A stretch of DNA of 39,019 nucleotides, taken from contig CALENB010000226.1 of the NCBI GenBank assembly GCA_937910235.1, forward strand, positions 1 through 39,019, given 5' to 3'. Shown here piece after piece: positions 18,131 to 36,734 of the stretch (its first letter is position 1; every line of letters begins with the position of its first letter). The position numbers were made by a program, and so were the translations under genes. The DNA is from an uncultured Myxococcales bacterium. Lineage in GTDB: Bacteria; Myxococcota_A; UBA9042. Below the pieces are notes generated by a model. It had not been told where the DNA came from. It worked only from the letters and a program-made list of their open reading frames with translations, and did not search any database.

Positions 18131-20149
18131 TCAGACGGGCGCAGGCGTGTGGCGGCGCTCGCCCGCCGACCCGGTCGCGCCCCAGATCTCGTTGGGCGAC
18201 GCCAGCCGACCCTTGATCGCCGACGCGGCCACGACGAGCGGACTGGCGAGGTAGACGTTTCCCGGGCCGCTGCGACCCGGGAAATTGCGGTTGATCGCGG
18301 AGACGGTGACTTGGCCGGCCTCGCGTGAGACGCCGGGTCCCGCCTTGATGCAGGCGCCACAGCTCGGGTCGATGGTGTGGGCGCCGGCCCGGTCGAAGAG
18401 CGCCAGGTAGCCCTTGTCCACCGCATATTGCTTGATCTTCTGACTTCCGAACTGAATGTAGAGCTCGACGCCGTCCGCGACGGTCAGGCCCTGCTCGAGC
18501 GCGGCGCCGAGCACCGACGCGTACATGTCCATGTCGGCCATCTTGCCGCCCGTGCAGGAGCCACCATAAGCGATGTCGATGGCGATCGGCGTCGTCAGGC
18601 TGGACAACGGCACGCCATTGCGCGGATCACCCGGCGTCGCGACCATCAGCGCGAGATCGGTCAGATCGACGTGAAACGTCTCGGCGTACGCTGCGCCCGG
18701 ATCAGGCAGCAGCAGACGGTCGCGCAGGCCTTCGACGTCGAGCCCCGGTCGCATCTGCGCCAGATAGCGCAGCACCTCGTCGTCAGCCGCGATCACGCCG
18801 GACGTCGCGCCGGCTTCCACCGCCATGTTCGTCAAGGTGGCGCGCTCGTCCATGGGCAGCGCCCTCACACCGGGGCCGCCAAACTCGAGGACCTTGCCGA
18901 TCGCCTGGCCGTTCCGAATGTAGGGCAGCGCCATGATGCTGAGCATGATGTCTTTCGCCGTCACTTCGGGGCTCGGCTCACCGGTCAACTCGAAGCGCAC
19001 GGACTCCGGCACTTTGACGCGGATGTCCTTGGTGTACCAAGTGTTGGCCATGTCCGTGCTGCCCACACCGAAGGCAAAACAGCCGAGCGCCCCCGCCGTG
19101 CATGTGTGGCTATCGGTGCCCACGACGACGTCGCCTGGCAGGGCGAGATCTTCGAGCACCGCGTTGTGGCAGATCGCCTCAGACCCCGTCCCGTCGGCCG
19201 TTTCGTCGTAGAGACGGATCCCCTGCTCGGCGCAGAAGGCGCGCTGAATCGTCGCGAGGGCGGTCGCCTTATCGAGCAAGCCCATGTCGCGGTGTTGCTG
19301 GCTCATGACGTCACCGAGAAACGTCAAGTGGTCACGAAACGCATAGATGCTCGACGGCTCGTTGACCCGCGCGCCCTCGCCCAGCGCAGCCTTGAACGAG
19401 GCCTGCGCCATCGCCGTGGTGTAGTCGTGCGAGAAGCGAATGCCCGTCCGGACAAACACCGCGTCGCCAGGCTGCACGGCCTGCACGCCCACCGTGCCTG
19501 CGGCGGCATCGACGATGACGTGGCGAGCGATGATCTTCTCCACCAGATTCAGCGGCCGCGCCGGGGTCGTCAGCGTCGGCGGAACGACCTCGCCAGATAG
19601 ACGCCGTCGGTTGTATGCAAAGAGCCCCCCGGATTCGACGATGTCCGTCGCCACGGGGTCGAGACCCTGCGTAAAGGCCGACAAAGCAACCGATTCGCCG
19701 TTCAGGATCTTCGGGATCAGGCCAAAGTCGGTTGAGGTGAGCAGGCCGATGTTCTGGCAGTTGTTGCCGTAGATCTTCTCGATATTCTCGGCGATGACCA
19801 GACGAATACCGGCCGCTTGCTCTGAGTAGGGCGCCGTCTCGCGGCTGGAACCGCAGCCCTTGGACTTACCGGAGACGATGACGGAGAAGCCGCCGCGGGC
19901 GATGTCCATGTGTTTGATCACGCCGCCGCGTAGCCCGACGAGGCTGTATTCTCCGAGCGTCTCATCGAAGTAGAAACAGACCCAACCAGGGGTGATCTCA
20001 TCGGTGGAGATGTTGTCGATGCGCGCGAGGGCGGCGTCCCACGGCACCTCGACGCCGTCTAGCTGCGCGCGCACTAGGGCGAGGTCTTCGTACAAGAACA
20101 GGATTCGGCCGGGAAAGGCGATTTTACCGTCGACGACGTCCGAACGCAT
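18131..20149 (-). CDS. Isopropylmalate dehydratase-type LeuD-LeuC fusion
   Basis: A 672-aa fused aconitase-family enzyme, probably isomerising 2- to 3-isopropylmalate in leucine synthesis. The small-subunit swivel domain comes first (about 1-190), with NISTDEI (46-52) and GKSKGCGSSRETAPYS (94-109). The large subunit follows (about 200-672), starting at NLVEKIIARH. It has GTDSHTC (344-350) and three [4Fe-4S] cysteines C532 (GGSCTGG), C597 and C600 (PSCGAC). Classical bacterial LeuC and LeuD are separate genes in the order C then D. The ATG at 20149 has TGGAG 8 nt upstream. It lies 81 bp after a leuB-like gene, which supports the leucine role. Homoaconitase or another aconitase-like substrate cannot be excluded. 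Confidence 0.85.
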   Translation of the reverse strand: MRSDVVDGKIAFPGRILFLYEDLALVRAQLDGVEVPWDAALARIDNISTDEITPGWVCFYFDETLGEYSLVGLRGGVIKHMDIARGGFSVIVSGKSKGCGSSRETAPYSEQAAGIRLVIAENIEKIYGNNCQNIGLLTSTDFGLIPKILNGESVALSAFTQGLDPVATDIVESGGLFAYNRRRLSGEVVPPTLTTPARPLNLVEKIIARHVIVDAAAGTVGVQAVQPGDAVFVRTGIRFSHDYTTAMAQASFKAALGEGARVNEPSSIYAFRDHLTFLGDVMSQQHRDMGLLDKATALATIQRAFCAEQGIRLYDETADGTGSEAICHNAVLEDLALPGDVVVGTDSHTCTAGALGCFAFGVGSTDMANTWYTKDIRVKVPESVRFELTGEPSPEVTAKDIMLSIMALPYIRNGQAIGKVLEFGGPGVRALPMDERATLTNMAVEAGATSGVIAADDEVLRYLAQMRPGLDVEGLRDRLLLPDPGAAYAETFHVDLTDLALMVATPGDPRNGVPLSSLTTPIAIDIAYGGSCTGGKMADMDMYASVLGAALEQGLTVADGVELYIQFGSQKIKQYAVDKGYLALFDRAGAHTIDPSCGACIKAGPGVSREAGQVTVSAINRNFPGRSGPGNVYLASPLVVAASAIKGRLASPNEIWGATGSAGERRHTPAPV

Positions 20150-20230
20150 GGCGTGCTCCAGAATGAGAGGCTTGGCTGGCTGACGGCGGTCCGCGCGTGG
20201 GTCGGTGCACGCGTCGCCCTCGCGTCGCGT

Positions 20231-21283
20231 CTAGGCGTGGGCCACCTGCGCGCAAATGTAAGTACCGACCTCAGCGGTTGCAAGGTTGCCACCCAGATCG
20301 GGGGTGGTCTCCGTCGCCAGAACGGCCGCTGTGCAGGCCGATTGCACGGCGTCTGCCGCGTCCACGTGCCCGAAATCGCGCAGTAGCATGGCGACGCTGA
20401 GGATGGCGGCGAGCGGGTTGGCCTTGCCGGTGCCGACGATGTCAGGCGCCGAGCCATGGACGGGCTCGTACAGGGCGTGAACCCCCGGACGTAAGCTCGC
20501 GGACGGCGCTAGGCCGAGTCCACCGACCAACGCTGCCGCTAGGTCGCTCAGGATGTCGCCGATGAGGTTGTCGCCGACGATGACGTCGAACTCCTGGGGA
20601 TGCGTGACCATGCGCATCGCGGCCACATCCGCGTAGAGCGTGCGCGCTGTGACCTCAGGAAACTGCGGCGCCAGCTCAGCCAGGGCGCGGCGCCAGATGC
20701 CGTGGGCGTGAGGGATCGCGTTGGCTTTGTCACACAACGTCAGCACGCCACGACGCTGCCCGGCGAGCTCAAAGGCATAGCGCAGCAGGCGATCGCAGCC
20801 CATCCGGGTGTGGATCATGACGCTCTGGGCGACCTCGTGCGGGGTGTCCTTGCGCAGGTGACCGCCGATGCCGGTGTACACGCTCTCGGTGTTTTCGCGC
20901 ACGATGGCCATGTCGATGTCGGCGGGTGCTCGATCTTTCAGCGGGCACAAGCGCGCGTCGACGAGCTGCACTGGGCGCAGGTTCACGTACAGATCAAGTC
21001 GCTGCCGCAACCCCAGCAGGATGTCCTTGGCGTGCAGGTTGCTCGGCACCCGCGGATCGCCAAACGCACCGACGACGATGGCGTCGAAGTCGTCCCGCAG
21101 GTGGATGAAGTCGGCCTCGGGCAGCGTGTCGCCTGTGCGCAGGTAACGCTCCGCGCCCAGATCGAACAGCTCCGACGTCCACGGGATGTCGAAGCGGGTC
21201 GACGCAGCGGTGAGCACACGACACGCCTCGTGGATGACCTCTGGCCCGATGCCATCTCCAGGAAGCAGGGCGATACGCAGCAT
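20231..21283 (-). CDS. leuB: 3-Isopropylmalate dehydrogenase-like beta-decarboxylating dehydrogenase
   Basis: A 350-aa NAD-dependent enzyme that oxidises and decarboxylates 3-isopropylmalate in leucine synthesis, if the assignment is right. LLPGDGIGPE at 5-14 is the family's N-terminus; LYVNLRPVQL and VRENTESVYTGIGG form the substrate region, FDVIVGDNLIGDILSDL the metal site and EPVHGSAPDI the coenzyme site. The RENTES reading and overall wording resemble the tartrate/D-malate dehydrogenase and archaeal-type branch more than E. coli LeuB, so substrate is uncertain. The ATG at 21283 begins the conserved sequence; the frame is open a further 10 codons upstream. It follows the outer-membrane-type gene by 41 bp and precedes the dehydratase fusion. 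Confidence 0.8.
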   Translation of the reverse strand: MLRIALLPGDGIGPEVIHEACRVLTAASTRFDIPWTSELFDLGAERYLRTGDTLPEADFIHLRDDFDAIVVGAFGDPRVPSNLHAKDILLGLRQRLDLYVNLRPVQLVDARLCPLKDRAPADIDMAIVRENTESVYTGIGGHLRKDTPHEVAQSVMIHTRMGCDRLLRYAFELAGQRRGVLTLCDKANAIPHAHGIWRRALAELAPQFPEVTARTLYADVAAMRMVTHPQEFDVIVGDNLIGDILSDLAAALVGGLGLAPSASLRPGVHALYEPVHGSAPDIVGTGKANPLAAILSVAMLLRDFGHVDAADAVQSACTAAVLATETTPDLGGNLATAEVGTYICAQVAHA

Positions 21284-21324
21284 TGAGGAACCCCAGAGGT
21301 GCGGAGACGGCACCGCGTTGGTGA

Positions 21325-21939
21325 CTAACGGAAGAAGACGACGAAGCCGAGCCCACCCGAAAATCCGCCACGGAAGAGCGAAAAAGAGGTGGTGTCGCCC
21401 AGCCCGGTCAGTGGATTACCGGCGGCGCTGCCAAACGCGAGGACGGGGCCGACAGCGCCGGTCATGGCGAAGTGCTCGCTCAAGAAGAACATGGCGCGCA
21501 GCGGGACCTCCATGGAGAAGCCGACGTGGATCGCCTCAGCGGTATTCTTGACGGCGTCGACCGAGCGAGACAGCCCGACCGAGAAACGGAGACCTGCGGA
21601 CAAGTTGACTTTCGGCGCGCGGAAGACGTTGTAGTGGGCGCCGAGCGCCATGAAGGCGGCCCAGGCGAGCGGCGTGTTCGCGACGCTCTTGGTGCGACCG
21701 CCGAGGATGGCCTCAAACCCCGCGTTCCTGGTCCAGTACTGCAAGACGAGCCCAGATGCGGAGACGTCTGGCGTGCCGACGCTGGTGCCGCTGACTTCGG
21801 GAAGCGCGGTCAAAGTCTGCTCGTAGCCGACGCCGATCTTACGGTCCACGACCACGGCGGAGGCGCTGCTGGCGGCTAAGACACCGATCAACAGCGCGCT
21901 GCAAGCCAAGGTCCAAGCTCGAAGGGTGAGACGCGACAC
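21325..21939 (-). CDS. Small outer-membrane beta-barrel-like protein
   Basis: A 204-aa protein with a clear Sec signal peptide (cleavage likely after SSASA, about residue 28). The mature part alternates polar and aromatic/hydrophobic residues with many glycines, and ends in GLGFVVFFR, which fits an outer-membrane barrel whose last strand ends near an aromatic. No named family is recognised. The GTG at 21939 is supported by GGAGG 6 nt upstream. It is inserted between argB (56 bp upstream) and leuB (41 bp downstream), so it may ride on an amino-acid operon. Confidence 0.75.
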   Translation of the reverse strand: MSRLTLRAWTLACSALLIGVLAASSASAVVVDRKIGVGYEQTLTALPEVSGTSVGTPDVSASGLVLQYWTRNAGFEAILGGRTKSVANTPLAWAAFMALGAHYNVFRAPKVNLSAGLRFSVGLSRSVDAVKNTAEAIHVGFSMEVPLRAMFFLSEHFAMTGAVGPVLAFGSAAGNPLTGLGDTTSFSLFRGGFSGGLGFVVFFR

Positions 21940-21995
21940 GGGAGACCTCCGCCGCTTATGTACCGCGGAGCGCTGCCTGGGGCAACGGGGCGATC

Positions 21996-22838
21996 CTAGC
22001 GCTGTGGCGCCCGCACGGCGGTTCTGCGTCCCGGTCTGGCGGCGAGCGCGGCTGAGACGGGCGCGGGCTCGTGTAAGCCCACAATCCAGGCGGTTTGGAC
22101 GCCTCCGGAGACGATGCCCGCCATCTCCGTCAGCTTCGCGATCATGCCGCCCTGGACCACGCCAGTCGCGATCAGCGCCGAGATTTGGCTCGTCTGGACG
22201 ACGGGCAGGTGGCTCTCGGGTCTCTCCAGATCAGCGAACACGCCGGGGACATCAGCCAAGAAGAACACGTCGTCGAAGGGCAGCGCATCACACAGGCTGC
22301 GCACCAAGGTGTCGGCGTTGAGGTTGAGCGGTTGGCCGTCCTCATCGATGACCACCGACGACAGCGCCGGCACGAAGCCGCCGCGCCACAGCGTCTCAAG
22401 CAGGTGGCCGTTGACCGCGGCGACGTCAGCGACCAGACCGAAATCGACCGGATCGGCCTCCCCAGCGACTCCACGTGGCGGCCGTCGTGTCGCCGTCACG
22501 CAGCGACCGGACGAGGCCGACGTGCTGACCGCTGGCAGCCCAGCAGCCAAGCATGCGGCGAGCAAGTCGGTGCCGGCCTGGCCGACCAGGGCCATCTTGA
22601 CGATCTCGAGCATCGCCGCGTCGGTCACGCGCCGCCCGCCCCGAAACTCCGGCTCGTGGCCGAGACGTTTCGCCAGGTTTGTCGCTTGCGGGCCACCACC
22701 ATGGACGATCAACAGGTGCGCGCCGGCGGCATGGACCACTGCGAGATCACGAGCGATACGGGCTCGGTCGTCCGGTGCAAGCAGCGCCGCGCCGCCGATC
22801 TTTACGAGCACGCGCCGCCCGGCCAGGGCCGCTGTCAT
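21996..22838 (-). CDS. argB: Acetylglutamate kinase
   Basis: A 280-aa amino-acid kinase for the second step of arginine synthesis (phosphorylation of N-acetylglutamate). LVKIGGAAL (11-19), IVHGGGPQAT (45-54), RRVTD (69-73), LNLNADTL and FFLADVPGVF are the family's phosphate, substrate and nucleotide elements. The stretch after RRVTD reads VGQAGTDLLA where many ArgB have VGKVNKxLV. The ATG at 22838 overlaps the TGA of argC as ATGA, so argC and argB are coupled; an in-frame GTG 2 codons earlier is less likely. The C-terminus ends in a short basic proline tail. Confidence 0.92.
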   Translation of the reverse strand: MTAALAGRRVLVKIGGAALLAPDDRARIARDLAVVHAAGAHLLIVHGGGPQATNLAKRLGHEPEFRGGRRVTDAAMLEIVKMALVGQAGTDLLAACLAAGLPAVSTSASSGRCVTATRRPPRGVAGEADPVDFGLVADVAAVNGHLLETLWRGGFVPALSSVVIDEDGQPLNLNADTLVRSLCDALPFDDVFFLADVPGVFADLERPESHLPVVQTSQISALIATGVVQGGMIAKLTEMAGIVSGGVQTAWIVGLHEPAPVSAALAARPGRRTAVRAPQR

Positions 22839-23890
22839 GGCCACAGCGCCGGCTGTCCGATGCCGGTCGTCTCTGGCAAGCCGAGCACGAGGTTCATGGA
22901 CTGAACGGCCTGACCGGCGCCGCCTTTGATGAGGTTGTCGAGCGCTGAGTGGGCCACGACCGTCCGCTTGCCCTGACTCACCACCTCGCCGACCGAGACC
23001 CCGACGTCGCAGAACATCGACCCCTTGACGCTGGCCACCTCGGGCAAGCGCCCCTCCACTACCCGAACCAGCGGCTCGTGGGCGTAGCAGTCGCGCAGCG
23101 CGGCGTGGATGGCGGCGCTGGGTAGCTCCGCAGGCACGTCGAAGAAGCAGGTCGTCAGGATGCCCCGCGGCAGCGGCGCTGAGATCGGGACAAAATCGAT
23201 CGTCACGTCGGTGGCGCCCGAGAGCCGCAAACTCTGCTCGATCTCAGGGGTGTGCTGGTGCGTCAGCGGCTTGTAGGGCTTCAGATTGACGGCGCGATAG
23301 GGATGGTGCGTGCCCGCGCTCGGGCGAACGCCGGACCCCGACGAGCCAGTCACCGCGCTGACACGCACGCGCCCGGTGAGCAGGCCTGCGCGCGCGTAGG
23401 GCAACAGGGCGAGCGTCGTGGCGGTGGCGAAACAGCCCGGACTTGCGACGCGGTCGGCGCCTCGAATGGCGTCTCGGTTCATCTCGGGCATGCCGTACAC
23501 AAACGAGCCCATTCGGTCCGGCAGGGGGTGCGGTGCGCCGTAGAACTCCGCGTACGCATCGGCGTCGAGCAGTCGCCAATCGCCGCTCAGATCGATCACC
23601 TTGACGCCCAGGTCGACGTATTGTGCGCCGATCAGCGCGCTCACGCGGTGGGGCAGCGCCAGGAAGACGAGATCGACGTTCGGTGCGACCTGATCGGGCG
23701 GGATGTCTTCGATCTGCAGATCGGTCAGACCAGCGAGGCTCGGGATGACGGCGTCGGCGCGCGCACCGATGTTGTCGCGTGCGACGAGGTTGGTCACCTC
23801 GACGCTCGGGTGGGGCAGCAATAGTCGCAGCAGCTCGGCGCCGCCGTAGCCTGTCGCGCCGAGGATGGCCACACGGTGGCTCGCTCTCAT
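22835..23890 (-). CDS. argC: N-acetyl-gamma-glutamyl-phosphate reductase
   Basis: A 351-aa cytoplasmic NADPH-dependent enzyme for the third step of arginine synthesis, reducing acetylglutamyl phosphate to the semialdehyde. The dinucleotide motif GATGYGGAELLRLL is at 11-24. The catalytic cysteine lies in ASPGCFATA (about 152-160). GSSGSGVRPSAGTHHP and HQHTPEIEQ are the typical substrate region. The length fits. The ATG at 23890 has AGGAG 7 nt upstream. The gene starts 43 bp after the stop of the giant TPR gene and overlaps argB by 4 bp. Confidence 0.96.
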   Translation of the reverse strand: MRASHRVAILGATGYGGAELLRLLLPHPSVEVTNLVARDNIGARADAVIPSLAGLTDLQIEDIPPDQVAPNVDLVFLALPHRVSALIGAQYVDLGVKVIDLSGDWRLLDADAYAEFYGAPHPLPDRMGSFVYGMPEMNRDAIRGADRVASPGCFATATTLALLPYARAGLLTGRVRVSAVTGSSGSGVRPSAGTHHPYRAVNLKPYKPLTHQHTPEIEQSLRLSGATDVTIDFVPISAPLPRGILTTCFFDVPAELPSAAIHAALRDCYAHEPLVRVVEGRLPEVASVKGSMFCDVGVSVGEVVSQGKRTVVAHSALDNLIKGGAGQAVQSMNLVLGLPETTGIGQPALWP

Positions 23891-34049: not shown

Positions 34050-34388
34050 CTAGCGTGCGTAGCGATCTTCGAGGCGGACTACGTCGTCGAGCTCAGGCGT
34101 GCTGACCTCAACAAGGCGCACGTCGACGTCATCGGCCGCGAAGCGATGCACGGTCCCAGGGGCGACATGGAATGCCTCACCGGGGTCCAAGTACTGCACC
34201 ACGACGTTCGGACGCGCGCCGATCTCCAGCCGCAGTCGCCCACTCAGCACGCAGACCGTCTCTTCTTTTTTCTCGTGATACTGGCGCGAGAGCTCTTCGC
34301 CGGCGCGGATGATCAAGAATTTTCCGGCGTATCGCGCCGTCTCGGCCCAGATCTCTTCGTGGCCCCAAGGCTTCTCAACAATTCGCAT
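34050..34388 (-). CDS. Small cupin, mannose-6-phosphate isomerase-like
   Basis: A 112-aa single-cupin protein. VEKPWGHEEIWAET at the start and LSRQYHEKKEETVCVLSG are the pattern of the C-terminal cupin of type II mannose-6-phosphate isomerases and their stand-alone relatives; GEAFHVAPGTVHRF is the second cupin motif. H38, E43 and H78 (approximately) are likely metal ligands; the usual HxH is reduced to H-E. It may isomerise or bind a sugar phosphate, but no sugar gene sits next to it. The ATG at 34388 has GGGAGG about 11 nt upstream. It is 105 bp upstream of the giant TPR gene, which has its own promoter. Confidence 0.8.
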   Translation of the reverse strand: MRIVEKPWGHEEIWAETARYAGKFLIIRAGEELSRQYHEKKEETVCVLSGRLRLEIGARPNVVVQYLDPGEAFHVAPGTVHRFAADDVDVRLVEVSTPELDDVVRLEDRYAR

Positions 34389-34925: not shown

Positions 34926-36734
34926 ATGACTTTCACCGCGCACAGCCCCGCGTTTCGCACACGTCGATTCCTCAACTGGTTTCCGATGGGGCTGACGTAC
35001 GCGTTCCTCTACATGGGCCGCTACAATCTGACGGTGGCGAAGACCTCGCTCGGCGACCTGATGACGAAGGAGGACTTTGGCATCATCTTCGCCGCCGGCA
35101 CCTTCTGCTACGCTTTTGCGTTCCTGCTCAACGGCCCGCTCGTAGACCGGCTCGGCGGGCGGCTCGGCATCTTGCTGGCGTCGGCGGGCGCTGCGGTGGC
35201 CAACCTCGCGATGGCCTTCTACCTGCATGACCTGCTCATCGATCCCACGACGGGCAAGGACACGATGGTGCTGACCTTCAGCATCCTGTACGCCGTCAAC
35301 ATGTACTTTCAGTCCTTTGGCGCGGTCTCCATCGTCAAGGTCAACTCAAACTGGTTCCACGTCAGCGAACGCGGCGGGTTCTCCGGCATTTTCGGCACGA
35401 TGATCTCATCGGGCATCTTCTTGGCCTTCACCGTCAACGGCTGGCTGCTCCACCTCGCGACCGACAATATCGGGCCGAAAAGCCAGTGGGTGGTCTTCGC
35501 CGCGCCGGCGGTGCTGCTCGGCATCATGTTCTTTGTCGAGTTCGCGCTGCTGCGCAATCAGCCCACAGATGCGGGCCACAAGCGCTTCGACACCGGCGAC
35601 GCGTCGAGCGGCGACACCTCCGATGAGCCGGTGCCCACCCTCGTGCTGTTCAAGCGCATCCTGACCCACCCGGTGATTCTGACCATCGCCCTGATCGAGT
35701 TCTGCACCGGCGTGCTGCGCAACGGCGTCATGCATTGGTTCCCGATCTACGCGAAAGAGGTCTGGGTGCTGCCGAACCATCACGCCCTGGTCTACGGCCA
35801 GTGGACGCACATGTGGCTGATCGGGGTGATGTTTGCCGTCGCCGCGGTCTCCGGCTTCTTGGCCTCGAAGGCCACCGGAAAACGTCGCGCCTTCCTGGCC
35901 GCGTTGGCCGTGCTCGCCTTCCTTGCGCCCTTTGTGCAAGGCGGCTGGGGCGGCATCCTGTTTGTGGCAGGGGTGGTCGGCGGCAACGTCGCGGGCTGGG
36001 TGTCCGACTTGGTCTTTCAGTCCCGGCGTGGACCCGCGGCAGGTGGCCTGTACGCCATGCTCGCGCTGTGCACCGTCATCATGATGTTCACGCTCGCAGT
36101 ACCGGGCAACGTCGTCGGTGACGCTCCGGCTGGAACGGGGCTGCTGGCCGGTGACGAGGTGCGTGAGCTCGGCGGCCGCAAGGTCGAGGGCTGGGCGGAC
36201 GCCTCTGCCGCGGTCAAGTGCTGGCCGGCGCGCTGCATCGACTCGAAGTGGGACGCCAAACGCTGCATCTGCACCACGAAATCAGGGGTTGAGGGCACCT
36301 CGGCCGCCTCGGAAGGGTTCATCCCCGCCTTGGTGCTGCGCGCGGGGAAGATGCTGCGTGTGAAGATCGCCGATCCGATGATGACGCAGCGCGCCGGCGA
36401 CAAGCGAAAACTCAAGGTGCGACCGGTGTTGCCGATGTCGCCCTTCTTTCTCGGCACGGTGGTGTTCCTGATGAGCCTCTGTGTCATCGGCACCCACGGC
36501 CTGCTCTCCGGCACCGCCACGATGGATTTCGGCGGTCGCAAGGGCGCGGGCACGGCGGTCGGCGTGATCGACGGCTTCGTCTACCTCGGCACAGGCGTGC
36601 AGTCGCTCAGCCTGGGCTATCTGACCTCACAATCTTGGAGCTACTGGCCGATGTTCCTGCTGCCCTTCGCGGTGATCGGGTTCTTGCTCTGCCTCCGCAT
36701 CTGGAACGCCAAACCCGGCGGCGGTGGTCACTGA
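34926..36734 (+). CDS. MFS (OPA/GlpT-like) transporter with PDZ-like insert
   Basis: A 602-aa inner-membrane carrier. LYMGRYNLTVAK (28-39) and the loop motif GPLVDRLGGRLG (70-81) fit the organophosphate:Pi antiporter branch (GlpT, UhpT). About 12 helices are split: ten before residue 392 and the last ones from 505. Residues 392-500 are an extra domain with PAGTGLLAGDEVRELGG and LRAGKMLRVKI, the pattern of a PDZ domain, and inside it four cysteines (432, 437, 447, 449). It would face the periplasm or sit in the loop before the last two helices. Ordinary members are about 450 aa. The start is the ATG at 34926, with GGAG 7 nt upstream; the frame is open for another 260 codons but that part is antisense to other genes. 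Substrate unknown. Confidence 0.85.
   Translation: MTFTAHSPAFRTRRFLNWFPMGLTYAFLYMGRYNLTVAKTSLGDLMTKEDFGIIFAAGTFCYAFAFLLNGPLVDRLGGRLGILLASAGAAVANLAMAFYLHDLLIDPTTGKDTMVLTFSILYAVNMYFQSFGAVSIVKVNSNWFHVSERGGFSGIFGTMISSGIFLAFTVNGWLLHLATDNIGPKSQWVVFAAPAVLLGIMFFVEFALLRNQPTDAGHKRFDTGDASSGDTSDEPVPTLVLFKRILTHPVILTIALIEFCTGVLRNGVMHWFPIYAKEVWVLPNHHALVYGQWTHMWLIGVMFAVAAVSGFLASKATGKRRAFLAALAVLAFLAPFVQGGWGGILFVAGVVGGNVAGWVSDLVFQSRRGPAAGGLYAMLALCTVIMMFTLAVPGNVVGDAPAGTGLLAGDEVRELGGRKVEGWADASAAVKCWPARCIDSKWDAKRCICTTKSGVEGTSAASEGFIPALVLRAGKMLRVKIADPMMTQRAGDKRKLKVRPVLPMSPFFLGTVVFLMSLCVIGTHGLLSGTATMDFGGRKGAGTAVGVIDGFVYLGTGVQSLSLGYLTSQSWSYWPMFLLPFAVIGFLLCLRIWNAKPGGGGH

Follow-up and report, generated by a model that had tools for sequence, protein, structure and literature searches.

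The window, which here means the whole analyzed stretch of 39,019 nucleotides, encodes a carrier of the MFS with a predicted PDZ domain in the loop between TM9 and TM10. There is little doubt about the carrier fold with both of its phosphate-binding arginines, about the PDZ fold and its location on the periplasmic side, or about the conservation. Bacterial PDZ domains are known mainly from proteases, secretion or organelle systems, and a search of the accessible literature for PDZ domains in MFS carriers did not find a relevant description. The PDZ-bearing MFS carrier is real, is conserved across many genomes and is apparently undescribed. The reading preferred here, with a probability of about 0.55, is that of an OPA-type carrier in which a disulfide-locked PDZ of the RseP type would serve as a periplasmic cap or docking module. 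The features on which the description is based are collected in Table 1.

Table 1. Features of the carrier gene, its surroundings and the related carriers. Positions refer to the window, unless a locus number precedes them.
Feature	Residues	Position	Strand	Basis or remark
OPA-like MFS carrier gene	602 aa	34926..36734	+	Pfam MFS_1, E = 4.8e-22; AF2; fold matches
Arg32 codon	32	35019..35021	+	HMM alignment to 1pw4, opposite GlpT Arg45
Arg265 codon	265	35718..35720	+	HMM alignment to 1pw4, opposite GlpT Arg269
Extra TM hairpin (second insert)	~283-339 (helices 296-315 and 318-337)	35772..35942	+	AF2; between TM7 and TM8
Predicted PDZ domain, RseP/site-2-protease type	395-484	36108..36377	+	Family profile to 3wkl, 6.3e-9; AF2 pLDDT, 90.8; Foldseek
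Cys loop in PDZ (C432-x4-C437-x9-C447-x-C449)	432-462	36219..36311	+	From the PDZ helix to the next strand
Post-PDZ segment (RAGDKRKLKVRPVLP)	485-504	36378..36437	+	Conserved; leads into TM10
Giant ORF	3336 aa	23934-33944	-	Recurs close to the carrier with the cupin gene (9 close relatives)
Cupin gene		34050-34388		Accompanies the giant ORF in these 9 relatives
Tandem-PDZ carriers		L072:8997-9551, L074:3127-3687, L082:9006-9551		Two PDZs in the TM9-TM10 loop
KSB1 inserts	~110 aa	L079:9045-9377, L084:1901-2230, L086:1641-2000, L087:9045-9413, L088:9048-9377, L103:5635-5976		TM9-TM10 loop

The carrier and its extra hairpin

The carrier gene starts with an ATG (34926), and a GGAG-type Shine-Dalgarno sequence lies just upstream. 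An 862-aa ORF in the program-made list is an in-frame upstream extension of the carrier ORF and nothing more. The AF2 model of the full carrier has a pLDDT of 87.9 and a pTM of 0.87. Its 15 best Foldseek matches (E from 6e-10 to 2e-8) all belong to SLC37/G6PT/GlpT, with SLC37A2, G6PT and GlpT first. Both phosphate-binding arginines of GlpT (R45 and R269) are kept in the carrier as R32 and R265; in the HMM alignment, they fall on GlpT chain positions 44 and 268, counted as R45 and R269 in full numbering. Among 68 aligned relatives, Arg32 is nearly invariant and Arg265 is invariant. This conservation at the phosphate-binding positions of GlpT therefore suggests that the exchanged solute is probably a phosphorylated or similar anion.

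The preliminary description had taken the protein for an OPA-type carrier, and this is borne out by the NCBIfam group, by the Foldseek matches and by the arginine pair on 1pw4. Judged from model and sequence, it is an OPA-type carrier of the inner membrane, OPA being the organophosphate/phosphate antiporter branch of the MFS. The PgtP/GlpT/UhpC group of NCBIfam is matched well under the curated cut-offs, and the scores give no membership in the GlpT, PgtP or UhpT subfamilies (PgtP, 99.8 bits vs. 407.75; GlpT, 59.4 vs. 632.55). With GlpT (1pw4), SLC37A2 and SLC37A4/G6PT, its best fold matches, the carrier shares the twelve-TM MFS core, including the arginine pair of GlpT. Unlike them, it adds a hairpin between TM7 and TM8 and the PDZ between TM9 and TM10, and its scores for the named subfamilies are low.

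Fourteen TM helices are predicted in the AF2 model. Named by the MFS layout, they are TM1 (8-45), TM2 (48-76), TM3 (78-105), TM4 (114-143), TM5 (146-181) and TM6 (189-208), followed by TM7 (249-280), the two extra helices, TM8 (340-362) and TM9 (368-389) and, behind the PDZ insert, by TM10 (506-527), TM11 (537-569) and TM12 (573-591). The hairpin formed by the extra helices, overlooked in the preliminary description, has a cytoplasmic turn rich in K/R, and its segment (283-339) is missing from some of the insert-less relatives. The position between TM7 and TM8 is unusual for the extra TM pair of a 14-TM carrier. Rv1410 and MHAS2168, also MFS carriers with 14 TM helices and a periplasmic extension, have their extra pair between TM6 and TM7; their extension, unlike the one described here, is a helix extension of TM11-TM12 and is required for the hand-over to a periplasmic partner (PMC10576003).

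Fold and cysteine loop of the TM9-TM10 insert

The insert comprises residues ~392-505. The stretch that runs from SRRGP to the GT in TM10 is 165 residues long in the carrier, compared with ~52 in the insert-less homologues. Residues 392-500 (36099-36425) contain the run PAGTGLLAGDEVRELGG, four cysteines (C432, C437, C447 and C449) and then LRAGKMLRVKI. An extra segment with a PDZ-like layout had been proposed at about these residues, and its coordinates, its GD and RAG motifs and its four cysteines are confirmed.

Structure prediction returned the expected PDZ fold. The AF2 model of the insert has a pLDDT of 90.8, and its 11 best Foldseek matches are, except for one integrative model, PDZs of site-2 proteases, with a probability of 1.00 for RseP/MucP; the E-values are at least 2e-3, and the TM-scores to the target are 0.56-0.64 for single RseP/MucP PDZs. 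The profile searches gave a divided answer. The insert of this carrier alone stays below the Pfam cut-off (PDZ_2, E = 0.16, with a match starting at PDZ_2 position 18). A profile of 45 family members, of which 27 individually show weak PDZ_6 matches, reaches the PDZ tandem of Aquifex aeolicus RseP (3wkl) at 6.3e-9 and the PDZ of E. coli RseP at 1e-3, the single-domain i-Evalue against RseP PDZs being weak (0.021). An unrelated small beta fold with GD/RdG motifs by chance would fit the PDZ_2 score of the lone sequence; it is very improbable, as the profile, the structure and the sister tandem forms agree on a PDZ, and the KSB1 insert, searched alike, gives no match. The computation thus supports a PDZ fold, predicted to be nearest to the PDZs of RseP and other site-2 proteases.

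The RseP PDZ tandem (3wkl; E. coli 7w6x) is the nearest PDZ by profile and fold, and it shares the Trp that starts the helix. In both cases, moreover, a polytopic membrane protein has the PDZ inserted at one of its periplasmic loops. Unlike RseP, the host is here a carrier and not a protease, there is one PDZ, and a four-Cys loop is inserted behind the PDZ helix. The metalloprotease TM core of site-2 proteases was not found in the carrier, whose TM part is that of an MFS protein; the PDZ alone is common with RseP. RseP PDZs are described as noncanonical and circularly permuted, forming a steric size-exclusion filter (PMC7728848 and a title among its references); with RseP PDZs as the closest matches, the nearest type would thus be a noncanonical, permuted PDZ.

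The MFS layout, the AF2 helices and the positive-inside counts support a periplasmic side for the insert, as the topology check intended for this loop was to decide. Among the short loops, those placed in the cytoplasm mostly have the higher K+R density. A membrane-embedded segment is ruled out by the AF2 models of the insert and of the full carrier.

C432, C437, C447 and C449 are invariant in 45/45 inserts, and exactly four cysteines are found in 42/45; the tandem and KSB1 forms have none or one. They are most simply read as forming probable disulfides in the loop that links the PDZ helix to the following strand, with metal binding as a conceivable alternative. The oxidation of these cysteines in the periplasm, foreseen in the preliminary description, is made probable by their strict conservation. 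A redox or metal switch, in which disulfides or a bound metal would set the activity of the carrier, would equally draw on the invariant C-x4-C...C-x-C pattern in the 45 sequences and on the periplasmic location. It is nevertheless improbable: structural disulfides account for the same pattern, and the tandem-PDZ form has no conserved Cys. The Cys loop is located at the end of the PDZ groove helix. A canonical PDZ holds the carboxylate of its peptide near that end of the helix, so the modeled loop may cap this site.

Spread and possible exchange of the loop

A search of 36 related genomes yielded 11 other full-length matches without stops, with 53-85% identity. A scan of GTDB genomes yielded 80 loci; 44 of them supplied further sequences with a single insert for an alignment with the present one (n = 45), and some of these 44 come from the same genomes as the 11 full-length matches. 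As to the spread that was to be looked for, the insert profile matches 36 of the 379 sampled genomes of the phylum, in 20 of 236 genera. Most of the named relatives are Myxococcota MAGs, among them Polyangiaceae and Sandaracinaceae. A few oddly titled ones look like mislabeled bins, for example L063, titled Bifidobacterium breve, because its sequence falls inside a clade of such carriers. The frame is open and conserved in dozens of genomes, which rules out a sequencing error, an assembly artefact or a chimera.

In a codon comparison with the two closest relatives, the PDZ evolves faster than the carrier core (dN 0.24-0.30, dS 0.7-1.8, dN/dS about 0.16-0.34); by these ratios, it is under purifying selection. 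The post-PDZ segment is as low as the TM core (dN 0.08-0.09, dN/dS about 0.07-0.10), and its G491 and R494 are invariant in the 45 sequences.

Other domains occupy the same loop in related carriers. The tandem-PDZ carriers have neither conserved Cys nor the extra TM hairpin. Their inserts match PDZ_6 down to 4e-15 and the RseP tandem collinearly across both domains (3e-10). Single- and tandem-PDZ inserts have a common entry, FSLGGTxxxVGW, and a common exit, AGPxxTLxP, and these shared ends suggest one origin. For the KSB1 insert, no Pfam or PDB match above threshold was found. Its interpretation as a divergent PDZ was rejected (hhalign probability 0.3%, no match in the PDB search), and it is therefore treated as unrelated to PDZ.

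On the tree of core columns, the five loop/hairpin states require five changes in all. One clade (support 98/98) unites the PDZ-Cys carriers with six carriers that have the hairpin and no insert, and the tandem-PDZ and KSB1 clades are each separate. The TM7-TM8 hairpin, common to the insert-less Acidobacteriota and Planctomycetota relatives and absent in the tandem-PDZ and KSB1 forms, is a single change. The AU test rejects an exclusive clade of PDZ-Cys carriers (p = 7e-5), since the insert-less Acidobacteriota are nested within it, which can mean a loss or an exchange of the loop. Joining the tandem forms with the hairpin clade, that is, a single origin of the PDZ inserts, stays compatible with the data (p = 0.33). 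The tree and the AU tests, with loops that hold a PDZ, a tandem PDZ, a KSB1 domain or nothing, thus show the loop to be a site for exchangeable modules. For the transport core, the PDZ is an accessory, because related carriers are without it or have another domain in its place.

The nested absence in Acidobacteriota and the faster change of the PDZ would also fit a passive, tolerated fold, kept for stability alone and with no regulatory or docking role. This is unlikely, as the PDZ is still under purifying selection, the post-PDZ segment is conserved and the insert occurs in 20 of the genera sampled from the phylum. A more far-reaching proposal is that such carriers repeatedly acquired protein-interaction modules in the TM9-TM10 loop (RseP-type PDZ tandem, disulfide-locked single PDZ, unrelated KSB1 domain) through which an envelope protein or the periplasmic redox state would control exchange. 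We consider it tentative and rather doubtful. If it were true, a regulatory receptor for the periplasm would be built into a bacterial MFS carrier, and if the module controls transport, solute exchange would be coupled to the state of the envelope. Carriers that have the module, lack it or hold another one in its place are a ready natural comparison set.

Possible role and gene neighborhood

According to the preferred reading, a cap or docking module, the carrier would exchange a phosphorylated or similar anionic solute across the inner membrane. Its TM9-TM10 loop would hold a PDZ module of the RseP kind, whose helix-strand loop gained a four-Cys, probably disulfide-bonded element. By analogy, the PDZ would be a rigid cap above the C-terminal half of the carrier, acting either sterically, by limiting access, or as a docking face that holds a periplasmic partner near the mouth. 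It would work like the RseP tandem above its active site and not by reading free C-termini. We infer this capping or docking role from the RseP analogy and the position of the loop.

In the OATP carriers, ECL5 is the TM9-TM10 loop. The OATP/SLCO carriers have a Cys-rich, Kazal-like domain in ECL5, standing above the C-bundle, and the function of this domain is unknown (PMC10507018). The PDZ carrier parallels this unexplained domain of the human drug carriers: both are MFS carriers with a disulfide-rich extracellular or, here probably, periplasmic domain in the TM9-TM10 loop. The OATP/SLCO domain differs in being Kazal and not PDZ and in belonging to animals, and the two domains are without homology.

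The PDZ could also be a true peptide reader, which would bind a protein of the periplasm or envelope at its C-terminus and in this way gate or tether the carrier. The PDZ fold found by profile and Foldseek is in its favor, and other bacterial PDZs can bind peptides; for MucP PDZ2, which belongs to the same group, the peptide GPAVLA is listed. However, the insert begins right after TM9, and the N-terminal carboxylate-binding strand that would precede the first PDZ strand is absent, although a permuted C-terminal strand could substitute for it. Further arguments against it are the Cys loop, which lies where the groove helix ends, and the noncanonical nature of the nearest PDZs (PMC7728848). Neighboring genes give no support either: a comparison of neighborhoods across the relatives found no conserved partner gene beside the carrier, which leaves gating or tethering through an envelope protein a conjecture at this stage. 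Peptide-gated transport is possible and not favored; we consider it distinctly unlikely.

Among the neighbors, only the cupin gene and the giant TPR-like gene recur; they do so in the 9 close relatives and lie on the strand opposite to the carrier. All further large neighborhood clusters correspond to the carrier or to shadow ORFs. Further upstream, the genes at 18131-23890 have aconitase, isocitrate/isopropylmalate dehydrogenase, amino acid kinase and semialdehyde dehydrogenase domains, and this run looks like an amino-acid biosynthesis cluster.
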